From assembly GCA_017941235.1 (NCBI GenBank), contig JAGAWU010000035.1, forward strand, positions 1-32,579: a DNA stretch of 32,579 nucleotides. Direction: 5' to 3'. The position numbers and the translations under genes are program-made. Source of the stretch: Bacilli bacterium. GTDB lineage: Bacteria > Bacillota_I > Bacilli_A > RF39 > UBA660. The notes below the pieces were generated by a model, which was not told the origin of the DNA, searched no databases, and worked only from the letters and a program-made list of their open reading frames with translations. Shown here piece after piece: positions 1,527 through 27,892 of the stretch (the first letter of the stretch is position 1; every line of letters begins with the position of its first letter).

Positions 1527-1908
1527 AAAAGTTGAAAAAATTGAAAATAATAAGATTTTATCCCCAGAAATTGTGGAAAAAGAGCTGAAAAGTAACCCTT
1601 TTGGCAATTTTCTTGTGTATAAAAAAGATAATATTATAATTGGATACTTATATTATAGCCTAATTTATGATAGAATAGAAATCAATCAAATTGAAGTTTT
1701 AAAAGAAGAAAGAAGAAAAAAAATAGGGAGTAATCTTTTACAATACTTAATTGATAATAATAAAAACAATATAACCCTAGAAGTTAAAATTGATAATTAT
1801 CCAGCAATAAATTTATACAAAAAATATGGTTTTAAAGAGGTTGCAATAAGAAAAGGATATTATGAAGGTATAGATGGTATATTGATGGAGAGAAAGATAG
1901 GTGATTAA
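1519..1908 (+). CDS. rimI: RimI-like GNAT N-acetyltransferase
   Basis: This is a GNAT-fold acetyltransferase of 129 residues, short for RimI (about 145-150). The acetyl-CoA motif A reads ERRKKIGSNLL near residues 68-78, a variant of R/QxxGxG/A. The C-terminal part has NLYKKYGF and YYEGIDGILMER, which correspond to the RimI pattern YGF...YY...DAxxM. RimI acetylates the N terminus of ribosomal protein S18, and its gene is commonly embedded between tsaB and tsaD as here. Substrate assignment rests on context; it could act on other proteins. Confidence 0.85.
   Translation: MIEKVEKIENNKILSPEIVEKELKSNPFGNFLVYKKDNIIIGYLYYSLIYDRIEINQIEVLKEERRKKIGSNLLQYLIDNNKNNITLEVKIDNYPAINLYKKYGFKEVAIRKGYYEGIDGILMERKIGD
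1900..1905 (+). promoter_or_regulatory. Ribosome-binding site that decides the tsaD start
   Basis: GGTGAT sits four bases before ATG 1910. An in-frame GTG at 1901 lies inside this site and is therefore very unlikely to be the real start. Confidence 0.75.
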
Positions 1909-1909
1909 T

Positions 1910-2914
1910 ATGAAAGACACTTATATATTAGGAATAGAGAGTAGTTGTGATGAAACTAGCTGCTCAATAATTAAAAACGGAACTGAAGAAATATCAACAA
2001 TTATTTCTAGTCAGATTGATATCCATAAAGACTATGGTGGAGTAGTTCCAGAAATAGCAAGTAGAAATCACGTAAAAAATATAACATTTGTTATTGAAGA
2101 ATGTATAAAAGAAGCAAATATGACATTCGATGATATAGATGCAATAGCTGTAACTTATGGTCCAGGATTAATTGGTTCTCTACTAGTTGGAGTAGAGGCA
2201 GCTAAAACGTTATCATTTATATATAACAAACCACTAATACCAGTTCATCACATAGCAGGACATATTTATGCCAATAGCTTAGTTTCAGAATTAAAATTCC
2301 CACTTTTAGCACTTGTAGTAAGTGGTGGTCATACTGAATTAATAAAGATGGATAAGCATTATAGTTTTGAAAAACTAGGTGGAACACTAGATGATGCAGT
2401 TGGTGAATGTTATGATAAAGTTGCTAGAGTTTTAGATTTAGAATATCCAGGTGGACCTAAAGTTGATAAACTAGCACATATTGGAAAAAATACATATAAA
2501 CTTCCAGTACCATTAAAAGATGATTCCTATAATTTTTCCTTTAGTGGATTAAAAAGTGCAGTTATTAATTTAGTTCATAATGAAGAACAAAGAGGAAATG
2601 AAATTAGAAAAGAAGATTTAGCATGTTCTTTTCAAACAGTAGCAGTATCTGAAATTGTTAATAAAACAAGAAAAGCAATTCAAAATAATAATATTAAGAA
2701 TTTAATAGTTGCAGGTGGTGTAGCAGCAAATCAAGGTTTAAGAGAAGAAATAGATAAGCTTTGCAAAGAACTAAATGTTGAACTTTCATTTCCACCAATG
2801 AAATATTGTACTGATAATGCAGCAATGATAGCAGCAGCAGGTTATTATGCAATGAAAGATGGAAGAAAAGCTGATCTACTATTAAATAGTAAATCAACTG
2901 ATAAACTTATATAA
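1910..2914 (+). CDS. tsaD: tRNA N6-adenosine threonylcarbamoyltransferase TsaD
   Basis: TsaD is the catalytic subunit that transfers the threonylcarbamoyl group from TC-AMP to A37 of tRNA. The 334-residue protein shows the full signature set: GIESSCDET near residue 8, metal-binding HIAGH (residues 114-118), SGGHTEL (138-144), GTLDDAVGECYDKVAR, SFSGLKSA, VAGGVAANQ and the C-terminal CTDNAAMIA that supplies the metal-binding Asp. The ATG at 1910 is chosen over an in-frame GTG at 1901 because the GGTGAT site covers the GTG. It is the last gene of the tsaE-tsaB-rimI-tsaD operon and a terminator follows. Confidence 0.97.
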   Translation: MKDTYILGIESSCDETSCSIIKNGTEEISTIISSQIDIHKDYGGVVPEIASRNHVKNITFVIEECIKEANMTFDDIDAIAVTYGPGLIGSLLVGVEAAKTLSFIYNKPLIPVHHIAGHIYANSLVSELKFPLLALVVSGGHTELIKMDKHYSFEKLGGTLDDAVGECYDKVARVLDLEYPGGPKVDKLAHIGKNTYKLPVPLKDDSYNFSFSGLKSAVINLVHNEEQRGNEIRKEDLACSFQTVAVSEIVNKTRKAIQNNNIKNLIVAGGVAANQGLREEIDKLCKELNVELSFPPMKYCTDNAAMIAAAGYYAMKDGRKADLLLNSKSTDKLI

Positions 2915-2921
2915 AAAACTT

Positions 2922-2951
2922 AAGATTTTACATTGTGAAAATCTTTTTTTT
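2922..2951 (+). terminator. Intrinsic terminator after tsaD
   Basis: The arms AAGATTTT (2922-2929) and AAAATCTT (2938-2945) pair perfectly around an 8-base loop, and T residues run to 2951. Confidence 0.85.
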
Positions 2952-2979
2952 ATTAATTATATCTTTAAAAAGAAAGGTA

Positions 2980-2988
2980 TGATATAAT
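2980..2988 (+). promoter_or_regulatory. Extended -10 promoter for the alcohol dehydrogenase gene
   Basis: TGATATAAT has a perfect -10 (2983-2988) with TG one base upstream. No good -35 box is visible. A strong AGGAGGT site follows just before the gene start at 3015. Confidence 0.65.
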
Positions 2989-3014
2989 TATTAGAGAATA
3001 AAAGGAGGTAAAAA

Positions 3015-4169
3015 ATGGGAAATAGAATTATACTAAACCCCACTTCATACTTTGGTCGTGGTTCTAGAAAAGACATAATTGAAGAACTAAAAGAAAAAAA
3101 ACTAGATAAAGCATTTGTTGTTACAGATAAACCTTTAATAGAAGCAGGTGTAACAAAATTAGTAACAGATGTACTTGATAATGCAAATTTTAGTTATGAA
3201 ATTTTTGATAATATTAAACCAAATCCTACAGTAGAAAATGTTCAAGAAGGAATTGATAGATGTAGAGAAAGTGAAACAGATGTAATTATAGCAGTAGGTG
3301 GTGGAAGCGTAATCGATACTGCTAAAGCAATAAGCGTTGTTATGAGAAATCCTGAACATTATGATATAGTATCACTTGATGGAGTAGGGAAAACAAGAAA
3401 CCAAGGTATGCCAATAATTGCTGTACCAACAACTTCAGGAACAGCAGCAGAAGTTACAATTAATTATGTAATTACAGATACAAAAAATTTAAAAAAGATG
3501 GTTTGTGTAGATCCACATGATATACCAATTGTATCAATAATAGATCAAGATTTAATGGAAAAAATGCCTAAAAGTTTGGCAGCTTCAACTGGAATGGATG
3601 CACTAACACATGCAATGGAAGGATACACTACAAGAGCAGCATGGCTAATACCAGATATGTTTCATTTAAATGCAATGGCATTGATATTTAAAAATCTTGA
3701 TAAAGCAGTTAATCAAAAAGATAGAAAAGCAATCGATAATATAGGTTATGGACAATATATAGCTGGTATGGGATTTTCAAATGTAGGACTTGGGATTGTT
3801 CATTCAATGGCTCATTCATTAGGAGCATATTATGATACACCACATGGCCTAGCAAATGCATTACTACTTCCTCATGTTTTAAGATTTAATGGTAAAATTT
3901 GCCCTGAATTATTTAGAAATATGGGACGAGCAATAGGGTTGAGTATGGAAAACTTATCAGATGAAGAAGCTGTTAATAAAGTAGCAGATGCAGTAAAAAA
4001 TTTAGCTATTAAAGTAGGAATACCACAAACATTAAAAGAAATAGGAATAAGAAAGGAAGATCTTCCAAAACTTGCACATCAAGCATTGAATGATGTATGC
4101 ACAGGTGGAAATCCAAGAAAAGTTACAGAAAGTGATATACTTTCTTTATATGAAAAAGCTTACGAATAA
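3015..4169 (+). CDS. fucO: Iron-containing alcohol dehydrogenase, FucO (lactaldehyde reductase)-like
   Basis: This is a group III NAD-dependent, iron-dependent alcohol dehydrogenase of 384 residues. The nucleotide-binding GGGSVIDTAKA near residue 95 and the iron-ligand segments GMDALTHAMEGY (Asp and His), HSMAH and DTPHGLANA are all present. Long stretches resemble E. coli lactaldehyde:propanediol oxidoreductase FucO from memory, including EVTINYVITD, CVDPHDIP, GQYIAGMGFSNVGLG and DVCTGGNPR. FucO reduces L-lactaldehyde to 1,2-propanediol during fucose or rhamnose breakdown. No sugar-catabolic genes are in the window, so the physiological substrate is open; general aldehyde reduction in fermentation is equally possible. 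Confidence 0.9.
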   Translation: MGNRIILNPTSYFGRGSRKDIIEELKEKKLDKAFVVTDKPLIEAGVTKLVTDVLDNANFSYEIFDNIKPNPTVENVQEGIDRCRESETDVIIAVGGGSVIDTAKAISVVMRNPEHYDIVSLDGVGKTRNQGMPIIAVPTTSGTAAEVTINYVITDTKNLKKMVCVDPHDIPIVSIIDQDLMEKMPKSLAASTGMDALTHAMEGYTTRAAWLIPDMFHLNAMALIFKNLDKAVNQKDRKAIDNIGYGQYIAGMGFSNVGLGIVHSMAHSLGAYYDTPHGLANALLLPHVLRFNGKICPELFRNMGRAIGLSMENLSDEEAVNKVADAVKNLAIKVGIPQTLKEIGIRKEDLPKLAHQALNDVCTGGNPRKVTESDILSLYEKAYE

Positions 4170-22068: not shown

Positions 22069-22116
22069 CACTTTTAAACAAAAATAATAAAAAAAACTTT
22101 AAAAAAAATAAATATG

Positions 22117-22130
22117 TGTTATACTATAAT
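22117..22130 (+). promoter_or_regulatory. Promoter of the adhesin-sortase operon
   Basis: TGTTATACT (extended -10, 22117-22125) overlaps TATAAT (22125-22130). No -35 is visible. The first is identical to the extended -10 at 12936-12944. Confidence 0.55.
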
Positions 22131-22157
22131 TAAATAATAAAGATAGGAGATAATATT

Positions 22158-23444
22158 ATGAATAATGAAAAGAAAAATAAAAACAAAACAAAAAATAATG
22201 CTTATTCAACTATGATATTAGGATTTTTCTTATGCTTCTTCATGGTAGGTGTATATATAGTAACTAATAATATTAGTAAAAGTTATGCATTACCAGTAGA
22301 TATAGATGCATATGATATTAATAAGATTACAACTAGTACAAAAATGATAGCAAAAAACAAGCAAACAGGTGAAGTAGAATATATACCATATAATGATCAA
22401 TATGATTCAAATACATATGATCCTTATTTCTATACACCAGGAGAAGGATTTTTTACAATAGGAGAAAAATTTACTGGTACAGTTCCAGTTGATGAACAAA
22501 GTGGATTAACATACGATTTTGATATGTTTTGTTTAGAAGCAGTTAAAGGAGTTCCAAAAACAGGTGTAAGTTATGAAAGAAATGAATCATCTGATTCCTT
22601 AATTGATGAAGGAATTGTTTATATAATAAATGAAGCATATAAAAATATCGAACTAAAAAACAATGAGTTAACTTTATCAATGGAAGATTATTATAATGCT
22701 CAAATAGCTATTTGGCTTTATCAAGAATTAAGCAAAGAACAAAGCGAACAATTTAAACAAGAAACATGTTTGGCAACTGATACAGCATGTGAAGATAGAA
22801 ATATAACTATGCAACAATTAGCTAACACATGGAATACAATTAGTGCAAATCATTCAGCAGGAGCTGCAAGTACTATTTGGAATTATATAGTAAATGCAAA
22901 AAATGCAAAAGTATCAACAGCAGAAAATGCAATCAAAGTTACTTCAGGTGATATCGAATTAAAACTAACTGAAGATAATAACTATTATGAAACTGGATTA
23001 ATTGAAGTTGAAGTAACTACTGCAGTTAATACACAATTTAATGGATTTAACTTTGTATTAAATGATCAAGAAACAGCTGCTACAGTAGTAGATGAAAATG
23101 GTGAGACAATAACTGATTATTCAACATTAGCTAATAGAAAATTCAAAATTAGAGTCCCAGCATCATCAGTAAAAGAGGGAACTACTACAACAATTACTGG
23201 TGACTTCTCTGGTAGATTTGTTAAATCAAGTTATTTAGCATATAAAGTACCAAATGATAATAACTATCAAGTAGCATTACTTGCTGCATCTACTACAAGT
23301 ACACAAACAGTTCCATTAAAATTAGAAATAACTGTTCCAGATACTGGAGTAGATTATTCACAATATATATATATTATTGGTGCAATGGTATTAGTAATAG
23401 GACTTACTGTAATATATGTTAATACAAAAGCAAAAGAAATCTAA
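22158..23444 (+). CDS. Thioester-domain surface adhesin with VPDTG sorting signal
   Basis: The 428-residue protein has a basic start and a hydrophobic export segment (about 17-36). A thioester domain (about 90-255) is inferred from Cys125 in MFCLEA and Gln182 in NAQIAIWLYQE, which match the Cys and Gln of the Gram-positive TED family (usual form TQxAIW). These two residues form an internal thioester that can bind host amines covalently. Two more cysteines (204, 211) may form a disulfide. A beta-rich domain (about 260-385) follows, then the sorting signal VPDTG (393-397), a transmembrane helix (about 402-421) and a short Lys-containing tail. It is followed directly by a sortase gene. Compared with pili adhesins it is short, a single-domain capture protein. 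Confidence 0.8.
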   Translation: MNNEKKNKNKTKNNAYSTMILGFFLCFFMVGVYIVTNNISKSYALPVDIDAYDINKITTSTKMIAKNKQTGEVEYIPYNDQYDSNTYDPYFYTPGEGFFTIGEKFTGTVPVDEQSGLTYDFDMFCLEAVKGVPKTGVSYERNESSDSLIDEGIVYIINEAYKNIELKNNELTLSMEDYYNAQIAIWLYQELSKEQSEQFKQETCLATDTACEDRNITMQQLANTWNTISANHSAGAASTIWNYIVNAKNAKVSTAENAIKVTSGDIELKLTEDNNYYETGLIEVEVTTAVNTQFNGFNFVLNDQETAATVVDENGETITDYSTLANRKFKIRVPASSVKEGTTTTITGDFSGRFVKSSYLAYKVPNDNNYQVALLAASTTSTQTVPLKLEITVPDTGVDYSQYIYIIGAMVLVIGLTVIYVNTKAKEI

Positions 23445-24093
23445 AAAAGAAAATAAAAGCAAATTAAAAAGGAGTCAAATATTATTAATTGGCTCCTTAC
23501 TTGTATTTGCAGGGGTAATAACTCTATCATATGGAAGATTACAAGTATTAAGAGAATTAATATATGAAAGTGTTAGGTTAGCTCTTTCAGTAGAGGATAC
23601 TAAAAAAGAAGATAATATATCAAATGGATTAGATACACCTGAAAATGTAAATCAAGGTGTGGAAGGAAAACAAGAATATAAACCAAAAATTAATTATAAT
23701 TACATAGGTTACTTAGAAATACCTAAAATCAGATTAAAAAGAGGTTTTGTTGATCCTTCATCAAGATATAATAATATTCAATATAATGTAACTATATCAG
23801 ATAAAAGTAACATGCCAGATGTTGACTATGGAAATTTTATTTTATATGCTCACTCAGGTGATGCATACATATCATTCTTCGCATATTTATATAAACTAAA
23901 TATAGGTGATTATGCATATGTAACATATAATGGTGAGAAATATAGTTATGAATTAGTAAAAGTAGAAAATGTACCTAAAGTAGGTACATTAGAGATACAA
24001 AGACCTAATAAAAATACAAAGGAACTTACTCTTATTACATGTACAAAAGATAGCGATAGTGAACAAACAGTATATTATTTTGATATAAGATAA
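23416..24093 (+). CDS. Sortase transpeptidase, probable partner of the adhesin
   Basis: The 225-residue protein has a Lys-rich start and a membrane helix (about 21-37), then the sortase domain (about 94-224) with YIGYLEIPKIRL, the catalytic His146 in LYAHSGDAYISFF and the catalytic Cys209 in TLITCTKDSDS. Sortases cleave the sorting signal and link the protein to the wall. The usual third residue, an Arg about 8 to 13 positions after Cys, is absent: Gln217 stands at +8, and the only Arg is the last residue (225, +16). The class is not clear (B- or D-like). The start ATG overlaps the adhesin gene by 29 bases without a ribosome-binding site, so it is likely translationally coupled. The start is therefore uncertain. 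Confidence 0.82.
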   Translation: MLIQKQKKSKKENKSKLKRSQILLIGSLLVFAGVITLSYGRLQVLRELIYESVRLALSVEDTKKEDNISNGLDTPENVNQGVEGKQEYKPKINYNYIGYLEIPKIRLKRGFVDPSSRYNNIQYNVTISDKSNMPDVDYGNFILYAHSGDAYISFFAYLYKLNIGDYAYVTYNGEKYSYELVKVENVPKVGTLEIQRPNKNTKELTLITCTKDSDSEQTVYYFDIR

Positions 24094-24105
24094 GAGAGGT
24101 GGTAA

Positions 24106-24687
24106 ATGATGAATATAGATTTAACTTTATTCCAAAAATTAAAGCTAATATTTAAATATTTCTTTTCATCATTTATGCCAATAGAATTATTAATAATAGT
24201 ACTATGTGTATTTCTATTTCTATTCTTTAATTTAAAAAGAAATAAAACTATAGTAAATATCTTTATACCAATAATTATATTATTATTTGTAGCATTCATG
24301 GCTATGGGATTTCATGAATATACAAAAAGTGCATTTGAAGAAGTAATAAAATTAATTATGCACTACTATTACTTTCCTTCAATGACATTTTATTTCGTAA
24401 TCATAATATTTACAACTATATATTTAATAAGAACAGTATATACTGAAAAAGTATCAAAAAAATTTAAAATATTTAACTATTCATTTAGTTTTATATTATT
24501 CTCGTTATTTGTAGGATTATTTAGTTATGTAATATCAAATCATATTGGTCTATCAATAGATTATAGTATTTATAAAGATCAATATATATTATCATTTATT
24601 CAAATTAGTAACTTAGTATTTGTACTATGGTTATTCATAATAGGGATAATAAAACTATATAATTATTTTAAGAAAAAATATGATTAG
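24106..24687 (+). CDS. Polytopic membrane protein of unknown function in the sortase operon
   Basis: The 193-residue protein has about five to six hydrophobic helices (near 24-42, 47-67, 88-107, 123-145, 160-182), short polar loops and a basic tail KKKYD. GAGGTGG precedes tandem ATG codons at 24106 and 24109, 12 bases after the sortase stop, with no terminator in between, so it belongs to the adhesin operon. No family motif is recognised. It may assist export, folding or anchoring of the adhesin, but this rests on position only. The gene ends in TAG next to a terminator. Confidence 0.7.
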   Translation: MMNIDLTLFQKLKLIFKYFFSSFMPIELLIIVLCVFLFLFFNLKRNKTIVNIFIPIIILLFVAFMAMGFHEYTKSAFEEVIKLIMHYYYFPSMTFYFVIIIFTTIYLIRTVYTEKVSKKFKIFNYSFSFILFSLFVGLFSYVISNHIGLSIDYSIYKDQYILSFIQISNLVFVLWLFIIGIIKLYNYFKKKYD

Positions 24688-24712
24688 ACTCTAACTAGAG
24701 TCTTTTATTTTT
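24686..24712 (+). terminator. Intrinsic terminator after the adhesin operon
   Basis: AGACTCT (24686-24692) and AGAGTCT (24697-24703) pair around AACT, followed by a T-rich tract. Confidence 0.8.
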
Positions 24713-25520
24713 GTAAAAACATAGCAACATATTCATCAAGCGTAATATTATTTTGATGAATGTATTTTGCTATTTCTTTACCAACGTATCTATAATGCCA
24801 AGATTCATAACTATATCCAGTAATATTTTCTTTATTTTTGGGATATCTCTCTATAAAACCATATTTATAAGAATTCTTTTTCATCCACAAATAACTTCTG
24901 CTTTTCTCGAATAATTGATAATTAATAACACCATCATCTATATCTACACATAAACCTGTTTGATGTTCAGAAAAGCCTGGTCTAGCAGAATAAGCATCAG
25001 CTTCTTCTTTTCCATCAATTTTGACATATTTATCATATAAATCCTTTTGATAATCATAACTCCTATAACTAGACATAATTCTTATTTTATAGCCATCTTT
25101 AATAGCGTCAGTATACATTTTTTTTAATGAAATAGCTGCTTCTTTAACTAAATACATATTATCTCTTGAGTAACTTCTATCGAGTAGTATTAAGTCATTA
25201 GGAACATAATTACTAGGAAGATAAGTATATTTATTAACTAAAATATAGTTTTTGTTCAAAAATTTTGAAACAGTAGTATTAGTATAAAAAGGTTTATCAA
25301 GACCGATATTAACCTGAATAACAATATCTTCATATGAATAATCAGTATGAGAATGATAATAGCTAATATAACGTTTATTATACTTTTTATTATAGTATTT
25401 AAGTTTAGATACTTCTTTAATAAAAGAATCTTCATATGTAATTTGCTTATCTTTTTTTAAACAACCGGAAATTATTAATAAACATATAGTAATAATTAAA
25501 ACTATTAATATTTTTTTCAT
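24705..25520 (-). CDS. vanY: VanY-type D-alanyl-D-alanine carboxypeptidase, lipoprotein
   Basis: The 271-residue protein has a lipoprotein signal peptide with lipobox LIISGC, so it is lipid-anchored outside the membrane. The VanY domain occupies the C-terminal half: SSYRSYDYQKDLYDKY, the zinc-binding ARPGFSEHQTGLCVDIDDG and ESWHYRYVG, the SxHxxGxxxD...WH metal motif of this peptidase family. It removes the terminal D-Ala from peptidoglycan stem peptides. ATG 25520 is preferred because GAGGTGA precedes it; the GTG at 25526 lies inside that site. It is about 60 bases downstream of a paralogue on the same strand, and a terminator lies between them. Confidence 0.88.
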   Translation of the reverse strand: MKKILIVLIITICLLIISGCLKKDKQITYEDSFIKEVSKLKYYNKKYNKRYISYYHSHTDYSYEDIVIQVNIGLDKPFYTNTTVSKFLNKNYILVNKYTYLPSNYVPNDLILLDRSYSRDNMYLVKEAAISLKKMYTDAIKDGYKIRIMSSYRSYDYQKDLYDKYVKIDGKEEADAYSARPGFSEHQTGLCVDIDDGVINYQLFEKSRSYLWMKKNSYKYGFIERYPKNKENITGYSYESWHYRYVGKEIAKYIHQNNITLDEYVAMFLQK

Positions 25521-25566
25521 ATTCACCTCTAATTAAATAAATTAAAAAAAGTAAATATTTATACAT

Positions 25567-25594
25567 AAAAAAAAGAAATATTTATCATTTCTTT
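25567..25594 (-). terminator. Minus-strand terminator between the two VanY genes
   Basis: AAAGAAAT (25572-25579) and ATTTCTTT (25587-25594) form an 8-bp stem; on the minus strand a run of T residues (25567-25574 as A on the plus strand) follows. Confidence 0.7.
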
Positions 25595-26541
25595 CCTTCT
25601 ATAAATCTAGCATAGTATTCCTCAAAAGAAATATTATTATCATGAATATACTTTGCTATTTCCTCTCCAACATATCTATAATGCCAAGATTCATATTTAT
25701 AACCAGTTTCATTTGTTTTATCTTTAGGAAACCTTAGTATAAAACCATATTTATATGCATTCTTTTGCATCCAATTAAACTCATTAGTTTTTTCGAAAGA
25801 AGTATAAGGTATCTCACCATCATATACATCTAAACATAAACCAGATTGATGTTCTGAAAAACCAGCTCTAGCAGAATAAGTATCTGCAGCATCTTTACCA
25901 TCTTGTTTCTCATATTTATTATAAAGATTAACTTGATATTCATAGCTTCTATAACTAGACATAGCAATAATATGTAATTTTTCTTTTAATGCATCCTCAG
26001 CCATATTTTCAAAAGCTTTTCTTGCTTCATCTACTAATTTCATACCACCAATAGAGTATTTACTATTAATTGTTTGTAAATTATTAGGAACATAATCGCT
26101 TGGTAATGAATGATATTTATTAACAAGAAGATATGTTGTATTAAGATATTCTGTTTCTTTTGTATTAGTATAATAAGGTTGATCAATTCCCATATTCACA
26201 TTTAAAATAATCTGTTCATTATCTAAATCTTTATTATTATTTTTATATTCTATATATCTATCTAAATAATCCATTTTAAAGAAATCAACTTTTTGATTGA
26301 TATTACCAAGCAGTTTTAATTTTTCTGAATTTTTATCCTTATTTAAATCTTTTGTTTGATCTTTCTTTTTCTTTTCAACAACAACAGTTGGCACTTTCTT
26401 CTTTTTATTAGATGTAAAACTATTAATTCCTTTTATAACAAAATGAATAGTGAAAACTATTAGAAAAATGACAACAAAATTACATATTAAAAAAATAGCA
26501 AAATTTTTCTTTTTAATTTTTAATTTCCTTTTTACAGCCAT
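25585..26541 (-). CDS. vanY: VanY-type D-alanyl-D-alanine carboxypeptidase, membrane-anchored
   Basis: The 318-residue protein has a Lys-rich start and a transmembrane anchor (about residues 13-34), a Lys-rich linker (about 38-70) and a C-terminal VanY domain with SSYRSYEYQVNLYNKY, the zinc-binding ARAGFSEHQSGLCLDVYDG and ESWHYRYVG. The sequence closely follows the lipoprotein paralogue encoded downstream (identical SSYRSY, SEHQ, ESWHYRYVG blocks and matching spacing), so the two arose by duplication. The anchors differ: helix here, lipid there. The gene has its own minus promoter at 26567-26595 and ends at a terminator. Confidence 0.9.
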   Translation of the reverse strand: MAVKRKLKIKKKNFAIFLICNFVVIFLIVFTIHFVIKGINSFTSNKKKKVPTVVVEKKKKDQTKDLNKDKNSEKLKLLGNINQKVDFFKMDYLDRYIEYKNNNKDLDNEQIILNVNMGIDQPYYTNTKETEYLNTTYLLVNKYHSLPSDYVPNNLQTINSKYSIGGMKLVDEARKAFENMAEDALKEKLHIIAMSSYRSYEYQVNLYNKYEKQDGKDAADTYSARAGFSEHQSGLCLDVYDGEIPYTSFEKTNEFNWMQKNAYKYGFILRFPKDKTNETGYKYESWHYRYVGEEIAKYIHDNNISFEEYYARFIEGKK

Positions 26542-26566
26542 ATAATCATCTCTTATCTTTATATAT

Positions 26567-26595
26567 ATAATAACATATTAAAAAACAATTAACAA
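26567..26595 (-). promoter_or_regulatory. Promoter of the membrane-anchored VanY gene
   Basis: On the minus strand TTGTTA (26590-26595) and TATTAT (26567-26572) are 17 bases apart, with TG one base before the -10. Confidence 0.6.
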
Positions 26596-26610
26596 ATAAC
26601 TTTACATATG

Positions 26611-26619
26611 TGCTATAAT
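26611..26619 (+). promoter_or_regulatory. Extended -10 promoter of the VanW gene
   Basis: TGCTATAAT (TATAAT at 26614-26619) lies 22 bases before the start. The 100-base region between divergent VanY and VanW genes thus carries both promoters, and the small palindrome ACATATGT (26604-26611) between them. Confidence 0.65.
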
Positions 26620-26641
26620 AATTTTAGTGAGTTGAAAGAAA

Positions 26642-27892
26642 ATGAGAGTAAAGAATAATAAGGTAAGTCGAATAAGTTTACTTGGTATAGTTGCTATTAT
26701 TATAACAACTTTTATTTTAGTGCTTTCAAGTAGTATAGTCTTTGTCACAAAAAGAGTAAATAGTTATAAAAATAGGACATATAAGAATACTTATTTAGGA
26801 CAATATGATATTAGTGAATTAAAATATGAAAACCTAAAAGAAAAAATAAAAAGTATAACAAGTGATTATTTAAATTCAAAGGTAATACTTATATATGGAG
26901 ATAATAAAATAGAAACAACTTATGAAAAGTTAGGATTTAAATTAGATTCAGAAAAGATGTATAATAATATAATTAAAAGTAAAAATAAAATGAGTTATTT
27001 TGAAAAAATTAAATATGCTTTAAAGACAGGAAAAAAGAGTTATAAATTAGAATCTAGTTATGATGAAAACACATTAAATACTTATATAACAGATATAAAG
27101 AATAATTATGATCGTGGTAAAACAGAGGAAAAGTTTGAAATAGATGAAGAAAGAAATGTAAGATATATTGAAGGAAAAAGTGCTCTCTCTTTAGATATAG
27201 AAAAGTCAAAAGAACAACTTCTAAAAGACTTAAAAGGCAAAGAAATTAAAGATGAGATAAAATTAGTATATAGTGAAGATAAAGTAGAAAACCATGAATC
27301 TTATAAATCGATTGATACTAAAGTTTCTTCATTTACTACAGAGTTTAATCCTTATATTTCAAGAGGAACAAATTTAAGAACAGGACTAGCTTATATAGAT
27401 GGTGCAATAGTTGAACCAGGTGAAGTTTTCTCTTTCTATAAATATGCCGGTCCTTATAATAAAAGAGGTTATGTATTTTACTATGAGTTTGTAGGGAATG
27501 GAGTTTGTCAAATAGCAACAACTACTTATAATGCTGCACTTTTGGGTGGACTTGAGATAGTAGAAAGATATCAACATGCAGAAATGGTACCTTATGTTAA
27601 AGGTGGCCTTGATGCAACAGTAGCAAGTTATGCAAGCGGATGGTATGTAGATATGAAATTTAAAAATACATATAAGTATCCGATATATATTTCAGCTTAT
27701 GCTACAGGAGGAGTTGCACACGTAGATTTCTGGTCAAATAGTAATGCAAAAGAAGGAAAAACATACCAAACAGAATCAGTTAAAGTAAGCGTTTTAGGAT
27801 ATAAAAGCTATTTACATGTATATGATTCTAATGGACAAGAAATAGAAAAAAGATTCTTAGCTAATTCTTGGTATAGAGAAAAGAAAAATTAA
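26642..27892 (+). CDS. vanW: VanW family cell-wall protein
   Basis: The 416-residue protein has an N-terminal transmembrane anchor (about 12-34), a peptidoglycan-binding-like domain (about 45-210) with YLGQYDIS, and a C-terminal VanW domain (about 225-375) with the conserved segments RGTNLRTGLAYIDG, VEPGEVFSFYKYAGPY, NGVCQIATTTYNAALLGGLEIVER and GGLDATVASYASGWYVDMKFKN. VanW is associated with glycopeptide resistance clusters and cell-wall turnover, but its biochemical function is unknown. The ribosome-binding site is weak (GAAAGAAA). It is divergent from two VanY genes, so a small cell-wall modification locus is likely; it is not vancomycin resistance by itself, as vanHAX genes are absent. 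Confidence 0.9.
   Translation: MRVKNNKVSRISLLGIVAIIITTFILVLSSSIVFVTKRVNSYKNRTYKNTYLGQYDISELKYENLKEKIKSITSDYLNSKVILIYGDNKIETTYEKLGFKLDSEKMYNNIIKSKNKMSYFEKIKYALKTGKKSYKLESSYDENTLNTYITDIKNNYDRGKTEEKFEIDEERNVRYIEGKSALSLDIEKSKEQLLKDLKGKEIKDEIKLVYSEDKVENHESYKSIDTKVSSFTTEFNPYISRGTNLRTGLAYIDGAIVEPGEVFSFYKYAGPYNKRGYVFYYEFVGNGVCQIATTTYNAALLGGLEIVERYQHAEMVPYVKGGLDATVASYASGWYVDMKFKNTYKYPIYISAYATGGVAHVDFWSNSNAKEGKTYQTESVKVSVLGYKSYLHVYDSNGQEIEKRFLANSWYREKKN

Follow-up and report, generated by a model that had tools for sequence, protein, structure and literature searches.

Organization of the locus

The window, i.e. the whole stretch of 32,579 nucleotides that was analysed, corresponds to one complete contig (G000:C12) of a draft genome of 1.56 Mb in 57 contigs. 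Three genes, coding for a predicted surface adhesin, a sortase and a polytopic membrane protein, follow each other on its forward strand (Table 1) and are the only ones found between an upstream HTH gene and an intrinsic-terminator-like hairpin; a gene for a backbone pilin is absent from this interval. Since the hairpin lies just past the third stop codon and is the sole terminator-like site of its strand in the window, no terminator separates the three genes. Their co-directional arrangement and the 29-nucleotide overlap of the adhesin and sortase frames, both described in an earlier note on this DNA, are seen directly in the coordinates of the reading frames. The promoter-like site upstream is weak evidence for a transcription start, as the count of such matches in the window is no higher than in shuffled sequences.

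Table 1. Features of the three-gene unit. Positions are those of the window; residue counts are given for sequences drawn from the best 80 of 258 relatives (n/80) or for the window plus these 80 (n/81).
Feature	Positions	Strand	Description
Promoter-like site	22098-22125	+	TTTAAA, 16 nt, TATACT, with TG before the -10 (extended -10); consensus match only
Shine-Dalgarno sequence	22145-22149	+	AGGAG, 5' of the adhesin gene
Adhesin ORF	22158-23444	+	428 aa; predicted signal peptide (S-Y-A44), single class II thioester domain (about residues 48-394), sorting signal, TM helix, basic tail
Cys125 codon	22530-22532	+	FCLE motif; predicted thioester Cys; 80/80
Gln182 codon	22701-22703	+	AQIAIW, the TQxxPhiW motif; 80/80
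Gln371 codon	23268-23270	+	Predicted bond-forming Gln, start of the last long strand; 80/80
Sorting signal	23334-23348	+	VPDTG, residues 393-397; Thr396 80/80, Pro 76/80
Sortase ORF	23416-24093	+	225 aa; N-terminal TM helix, His146, Thr208-Cys209
Arg196 codon	24001-24003	+	13 residues before Cys209; possible Arg substitute; 81/81
Gln217 codon	24064-24066	+	Cys+8, canonical catalytic Arg position; Gln 81/81
Membrane protein ORF	24106-24687	+	193 aa; five-helix sortase partner, family not previously described
Intrinsic-terminator-like site	24686-24703	+	Hairpin and T run closing the operon; sole site of this kind on the + strand

The module adjoins two tandem genes for VanY-type D,D-carboxypeptidases (minus strand) and a VanW gene (24705-27892). 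Most species of order RF39 are predicted to retain a peptidoglycan wall (PMC10868615), and the presence of these genes is in keeping with such a wall.

Conservation and distribution of the module

Relatives were collected by scanning an alignment of the sortase over one genome per GTDB species, which yielded 258 relatives, and the best 80 of these were used. Their record titles describe uncultured Bacilli and Firmicutes related to these, for the most part from gut and rumen, including Candidatus Faecimonas. Among these best 80 of 258, the membrane-protein gene lay 3' of the sortase gene in 80 of 80 loci and the adhesin gene 5' of it in all 79 loci with a long enough contig, the species being related to one another so that these counts do not represent independent events. 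The adhesin and sortase frames overlapped in each of the 79 uncut loci (by 1 to 83 nt, measured on the longest frame). Recurrence of overlap and gene order in 80 other species, all from a single family of uncultured gut Bacilli, indicates that neither is due to chance. The earlier note had suggested a search for co-occurrence and had reckoned with relatives carrying the adhesin but never the other two genes; the opposite was found, i.e. a conserved three-gene module.

The distribution of individual components was also considered. Of 145 genomes (144 genera) sampled from the bacterial family, 20 had a recognisable adhesin and 51 the membrane protein, a difference explained by a second paralogous group of the membrane protein, a longer form also found beside a sortase. 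The membrane protein was confined to its own bacterial family among the 395 genomes of the class that were scanned. None of the tested queries matched plasmids, phages or viral contigs, and there is thus no sign of a mobile element. Extra tandem adhesin copies, giving two or three adhesins per sortase, were observed 5' of the module at five loci (L187, L193, L195, L198 and L201).

Thioester-domain adhesin

Modelling assigns the adhesin to the thioester-domain (TED) proteins with a class II (slipknot) fold. The Pfam TED score of the window protein lies just above the cut-off (22.8 versus 22 bits), and 17 of 20 relatives match this family, the best with an E-value of 2.2e-12. An AlphaFold (AF2) model with a mean pLDDT of 75.6 retrieved class II TEDs as its top fold matches in Foldseek (EfmTIE86, 1.1e-10; BaTIE, 1.4e-9), and structure comparison over residues 48-394 gave Z scores of 14.4 for BaTIE and 13.2 for EfmTIE86, versus only 9.5 for the class I domain of Cpa. 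The prediction of a thioester-domain adhesin was thereby supported. Cys125, its predicted thioester residue, is invariant and lies in a sequence that fits the [YFL]C-Phi-hydrophilic motif.

The bond partner first proposed, Gln182, is probably not the right one. It is invariant, as is Trp186 (80/80, drawn from the best 80 of 258), but it belongs to the TQxxPhiW motif, whose Thr position is Ala in the window and Thr in 52 of the 80 sequences. The bond in solved TEDs is formed by a Gln outside this motif, which in class II is carried by one strand of a long hairpin at the C-terminal end (PMC6194298). The model displays such a hairpin, with two strands of about 20 residues (343-363 and 373-392), and Gln371 stands just before the second. 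Owing to this position and to its invariance, Gln371 is likely to be the partner of Cys125, far more so than Gln182, which would then be an accessory residue.

According to the model, one TED makes up the entire mature ectodomain and is followed directly by the sorting signal. An isopeptide stalk was considered and rejected, as the class II sandwich accounts for region 250-392 and a conserved Lys-Asn pair was not observed. This bears on the idea of a vestigial or minimal sortase-assembled pilus, in which the adhesin would be polymerised or carried on a fibre rather than attached to the wall. SpaA stalk domains occur in 5 of 20 relatives, and the closest known module is the FCT locus of group A streptococci, with its TED protein Cpa, a dedicated sortase, a membrane chaperone and VPPTG/QVPTG signals (PMC7900414). 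Lack of a stalk in the window adhesin and of a backbone pilin gene in the operon makes this idea very improbable. By analogy with the biology of other TEDs, attachment to a host or matrix is plausible; an amine-bearing target could just as well belong to another microbe.

A sortase with glutamine in place of the catalytic arginine

The second protein matches the Pfam sortase family (PF04203) with 58.6 bits for a cut-off of 26.6. The Cys of its TLxTC motif is present, and His146, Thr208 and Cys209 are invariant in 81 of 81 sequences (window plus best 80 of 258). It stayed below the NCBIfam cut-offs of class C (49.2/160), D (28/165), E (30.1/160) and F (12.3/166). The most unusual feature of the module, which had been missed in the earlier note, is the loss of the sortase catalytic Arg. 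A His-Cys-Arg triad has been described as common to all sortases (PMC13257024), and in Streptococcus pyogenes SrtA the Arg follows the Cys at the same distance of eight residues (Cys208/Arg216; PMC9520033). Here, this position is always occupied by Gln, and no Arg was found anywhere from Cys+5 to Cys+13 in 80 of 80 relatives (best 80 of 258). A gap-free alignment of near relatives places Gln in the Arg column (L253, CMKNNKNRLVLRAK, versus L004, CRHNTNKQIVLIAE), and the class C sortases used as controls, from the same bacterial family and from other families of the class, keep the Arg within CTPYxxN[ST]HRLLVRG. No paper on natural Arg-less sortases was found in the literature searched.

In S. 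pyogenes SrtA, the Arg contacts the P4 and P3 carbonyls of the substrate and the preceding Thr serves the oxyanion site; substitution R216A abolishes activity, and an engineered LMVGG-specific SrtA with Ser instead of Arg remains active (PMC9520033). The effect of R216A means that loss of the Arg could reflect an impaired enzyme. The Gln-type sortase might accordingly be degenerate, weakly active or purely substrate-holding, the adhesin being anchored by another sortase of the genome, where Arg-bearing class B-like sortases do occur; the lost residue is, moreover, essential in the sortases tested (PMC9520033, PMC13257024). Against this, Cys, His, Thr and the fold are strictly conserved in 81 species (window plus best 80 of 258), all 79 uncut loci (best 80 of 258) retain the frame overlap with the substrate gene, and five separate Gln-type paralogues are all intact in a single genome. 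This alternative therefore appears unlikely.

Another basic residue may also have taken over the role of the Arg. Arg196 is invariant and without counterpart in canonical class C sortases. A basic residue at Cys-12 or Cys-13 was present in 115 of 117 Gln-type sortases versus 8 of the 17 Arg-type sortases counted, a difference whose nominal p-value is unreliable because the sequences are related; when position -12 alone is counted, the Arg-type number is 3, of which two are misfiled Gln-type sequences. These numbers could be taken in favour of an ordinary transpeptidase in which Arg196, or Lys/Arg108-109, replaces the Arg with unchanged substrate logic, the third protein being an unrelated passenger. 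Such an enzyme would not be expected to show a shift in signal type together with the Arg/Gln residue, as is described below, and a gene located 3' of the sortase in 80 of 80 loci (best 80 of 258) does not behave as a passenger. This possibility is regarded as doubtful, albeit less so than degeneration of the enzyme.

Other sortases without the Arg were encountered. At L243, L244 and L245, which look like pilus loci, class B-like sortases with the pattern TLSTCYNN..K[LMV]V[LV]HxKL have ordinary class C sortases as neighbours, and the sortase on contig C5 of the genome under study (CTRFGGSKDVIIKI) likewise has no Arg. From these sequences, the Arg may have been lost more than once in this bacterial family.

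Sorting signals

Sequence comparison indicates that the sorting signal tracks the type of sortase, Gln-type enzymes being associated with V/A/S/T-P-x-T and Arg-type enzymes with LPxT. Among 80 module signals (drawn from the best 80 of 258 relatives), position P4 was V in 45, A in 13, S in 9, T in 8, L in 2, I in 2 and P in 1, and the last position (P1') was G in 51, A in 16, S in 12 and N in 1. Leu at P4 was thus found in 2 of 80 Gln-type modules versus 7 of 8 hand-read Arg-type or class D neighbours. Within the family, Arg-type sortases adjoin LPxTGG proteins or near variants (LPKTS, LPNTE, MPDTY), and Gln-type sortases mostly adjoin VPxT-x proteins, including VPNTE, VPDTE and VPDTR in the genome under study. 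A P4 shift accompanying loss of the Arg fits the role proposed for this residue, mainly the reading of the substrate backbone at P4 and P3 (PMC9520033). It is quite conceivable, at a level of confidence slightly short of even, that these proteins form a natural class of active Arg-free sortases, in which Gln217, perhaps with Arg196, would read V/A/S/T-P-x-T-x and a five-helix membrane protein would be a dedicated cofactor.

The departure of VPDTG from LPxTG had been taken to suggest a private substrate-enzyme pair, a claim that our data weaken. Pneumococcal RrgC, which is handled by ordinary sortases, carries VPDTG as well (PMC5640630). Furthermore, the genome under study has eight sortases, five of them Gln-type, and six TED proteins with similar signals, the tails of the other five being VPNTE, VPDTE, VPDTR, VPNTA and IPDTG. 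A Gln-type sortase gene comes immediately after four of the TED genes, and the other two, on contigs C55 (VPNTA) and C26 (IPDTG), have no adjoining sortase. Cross-use is therefore possible and a strictly private pair is not established. Two tandem TED proteins of about 350 aa without a neighbouring sortase were also seen in another genome (L088, G067:C18, 5725-8141).

A five-helix membrane protein family

The third protein, described beforehand as an unrecognised polytopic membrane protein, remains so: it had no match in Pfam or NCBIfam and none in Foldseek at an E-value below 1 (best PDB match, 1.1). A second look at its fold matches produced Z scores of up to 8.0, which are within the range common for helical bundles. 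Its AlphaFold model (pLDDT 89.8, pTM 0.85) has five long helices in the membrane and an amphipathic one at the N terminus, with an N-out/C-in topology predicted from the positive-inside distribution of loop charges. Among the residues that are invariant in the relatives, the predicted topology would place most (Ser21, Ser22, Tyr87, Phe90, Pro91 and Tyr156) on the outer side, the face on which the sortase acts.

The protein adjoins a sortase, before or after it, in all 31 places inspected. Sortases beside the examined copies are Gln-type or Gln-like, one (L097) having His at this position. The members of the second paralogous group have an extra C-terminal part, cytoplasmic by predicted topology, and are usually located behind another surface protein. 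One such longer partner (369 aa) accompanies a Gln-type sortase in the genome under study, with no adjacent adhesin (L089, G000:C39, 4446-6263). The order is reversed at L106 (G073, 1630-3239), where a VPNTG surface protein is followed first by the five-helix protein and then by the sortase. Three TED-sortase pairs of the genome under study lack the third gene, which is thus not generally required. On the basis of these sequences, the third protein is considered a new membrane family tied to Gln-type sortases, the missing family and fold matches being no proof of a new fold. Gene position and analogy with SipA/LepA (PMC7900414) point to a possible scaffold or chaperone role; no paper on a sortase accessory protein of the SafA kind was found in the literature searched.

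Proposed mechanism and significance

The genes, their order and conservation, the residue loss and the signal-type correlation, all read from the sequences, would be accounted for together if the operon produced one covalently anchored and covalently binding surface protein, an explanation that we hold to be reasonably probable as a whole. The signal peptide would export the adhesin, which would fold as a class II TED with a Cys125-Gln371 thioester able to react with an amine on a presumed target. The C-terminal helix would keep the protein in the membrane until the co-translated sortase acts, presumably cutting after Thr396 (VPDT|G) and joining the adhesin to the cell envelope. This enzyme keeps the Cys/His pair and Thr208 of the oxyanion site, with Gln217 standing for the catalytic Arg, and Gln217, possibly with Arg196 in the loop before strand 7, would hold the V/A/S/T-P-D/N-T-x signal in place of LPxTG. 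The five-helix protein may be an outer-face membrane scaffold keeping sortase and substrate together, as SipA/LepA might in streptococcal FCT pilus loci.

A large natural family with Gln at this position, otherwise intact and matched to a different P4, makes the substrate-reading role of the Arg directly testable. Through the module, a device for covalent attachment is also predicted in uncultured gut Bacilli, and a new family of membrane proteins tied to sortases is defined.

Comparison with known systems

The module is made of known kinds of parts, but their combination is new and strictly conserved, and its sortase breaks a rule stated as universal. With BaTIE, EfmTIE86 and SaTIE (PMC6194298), the window adhesin shares a predicted head and beta-sandwich fold over the whole ectodomain, the [YFL]C motif, a TQxxPhiW-like motif, a late Gln on a long hairpin (predicted in the window protein) and a C-terminal sorting signal. 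It differs from them by the absence of an isopeptide stalk, by 12-14% identity in the fold search, by a Cys-to-Gln spacing of 246 residues versus 195 in BaTIE, and by its dedicated, overlapping sortase gene and membrane partner. The TIE adhesin of pLS20 from Bacillus subtilis is likewise a class II TED adhesin but, unlike that of the window, has neither a sorting signal nor a sortase gene (PMC8092201).

As for the sortase, class A-F enzymes with the His-Cys-Arg triad (e.g. S. pyogenes SrtA, PMC9520033) have in common with it the sortase domain, the His, the TLxTC motif and the Cys+8 spacing. The window sortase is set apart by Gln for Arg in 81 of 81 sequences (window plus best 80 of 258), by its V/A/S/T-P-D/N-T-G/A/S signals and by scores that reach no NCBIfam class cut-off. 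The S. pyogenes FCT pilus operon (Cpa, SrtC2, SipA/LepA; PMC7900414) also unites in one operon a TED adhesin, a dedicated sortase, an extra membrane protein and LPxTG-like signals (VPPTG and QVPTG in FCT). However, the window unit lacks a pilin backbone, its sortase has no Arg, gene order and overlap differ, and the third protein, with five predicted TM helices and no Pfam or NCBIfam match, has no signal-peptidase-I homology of the SipA/LepA kind.
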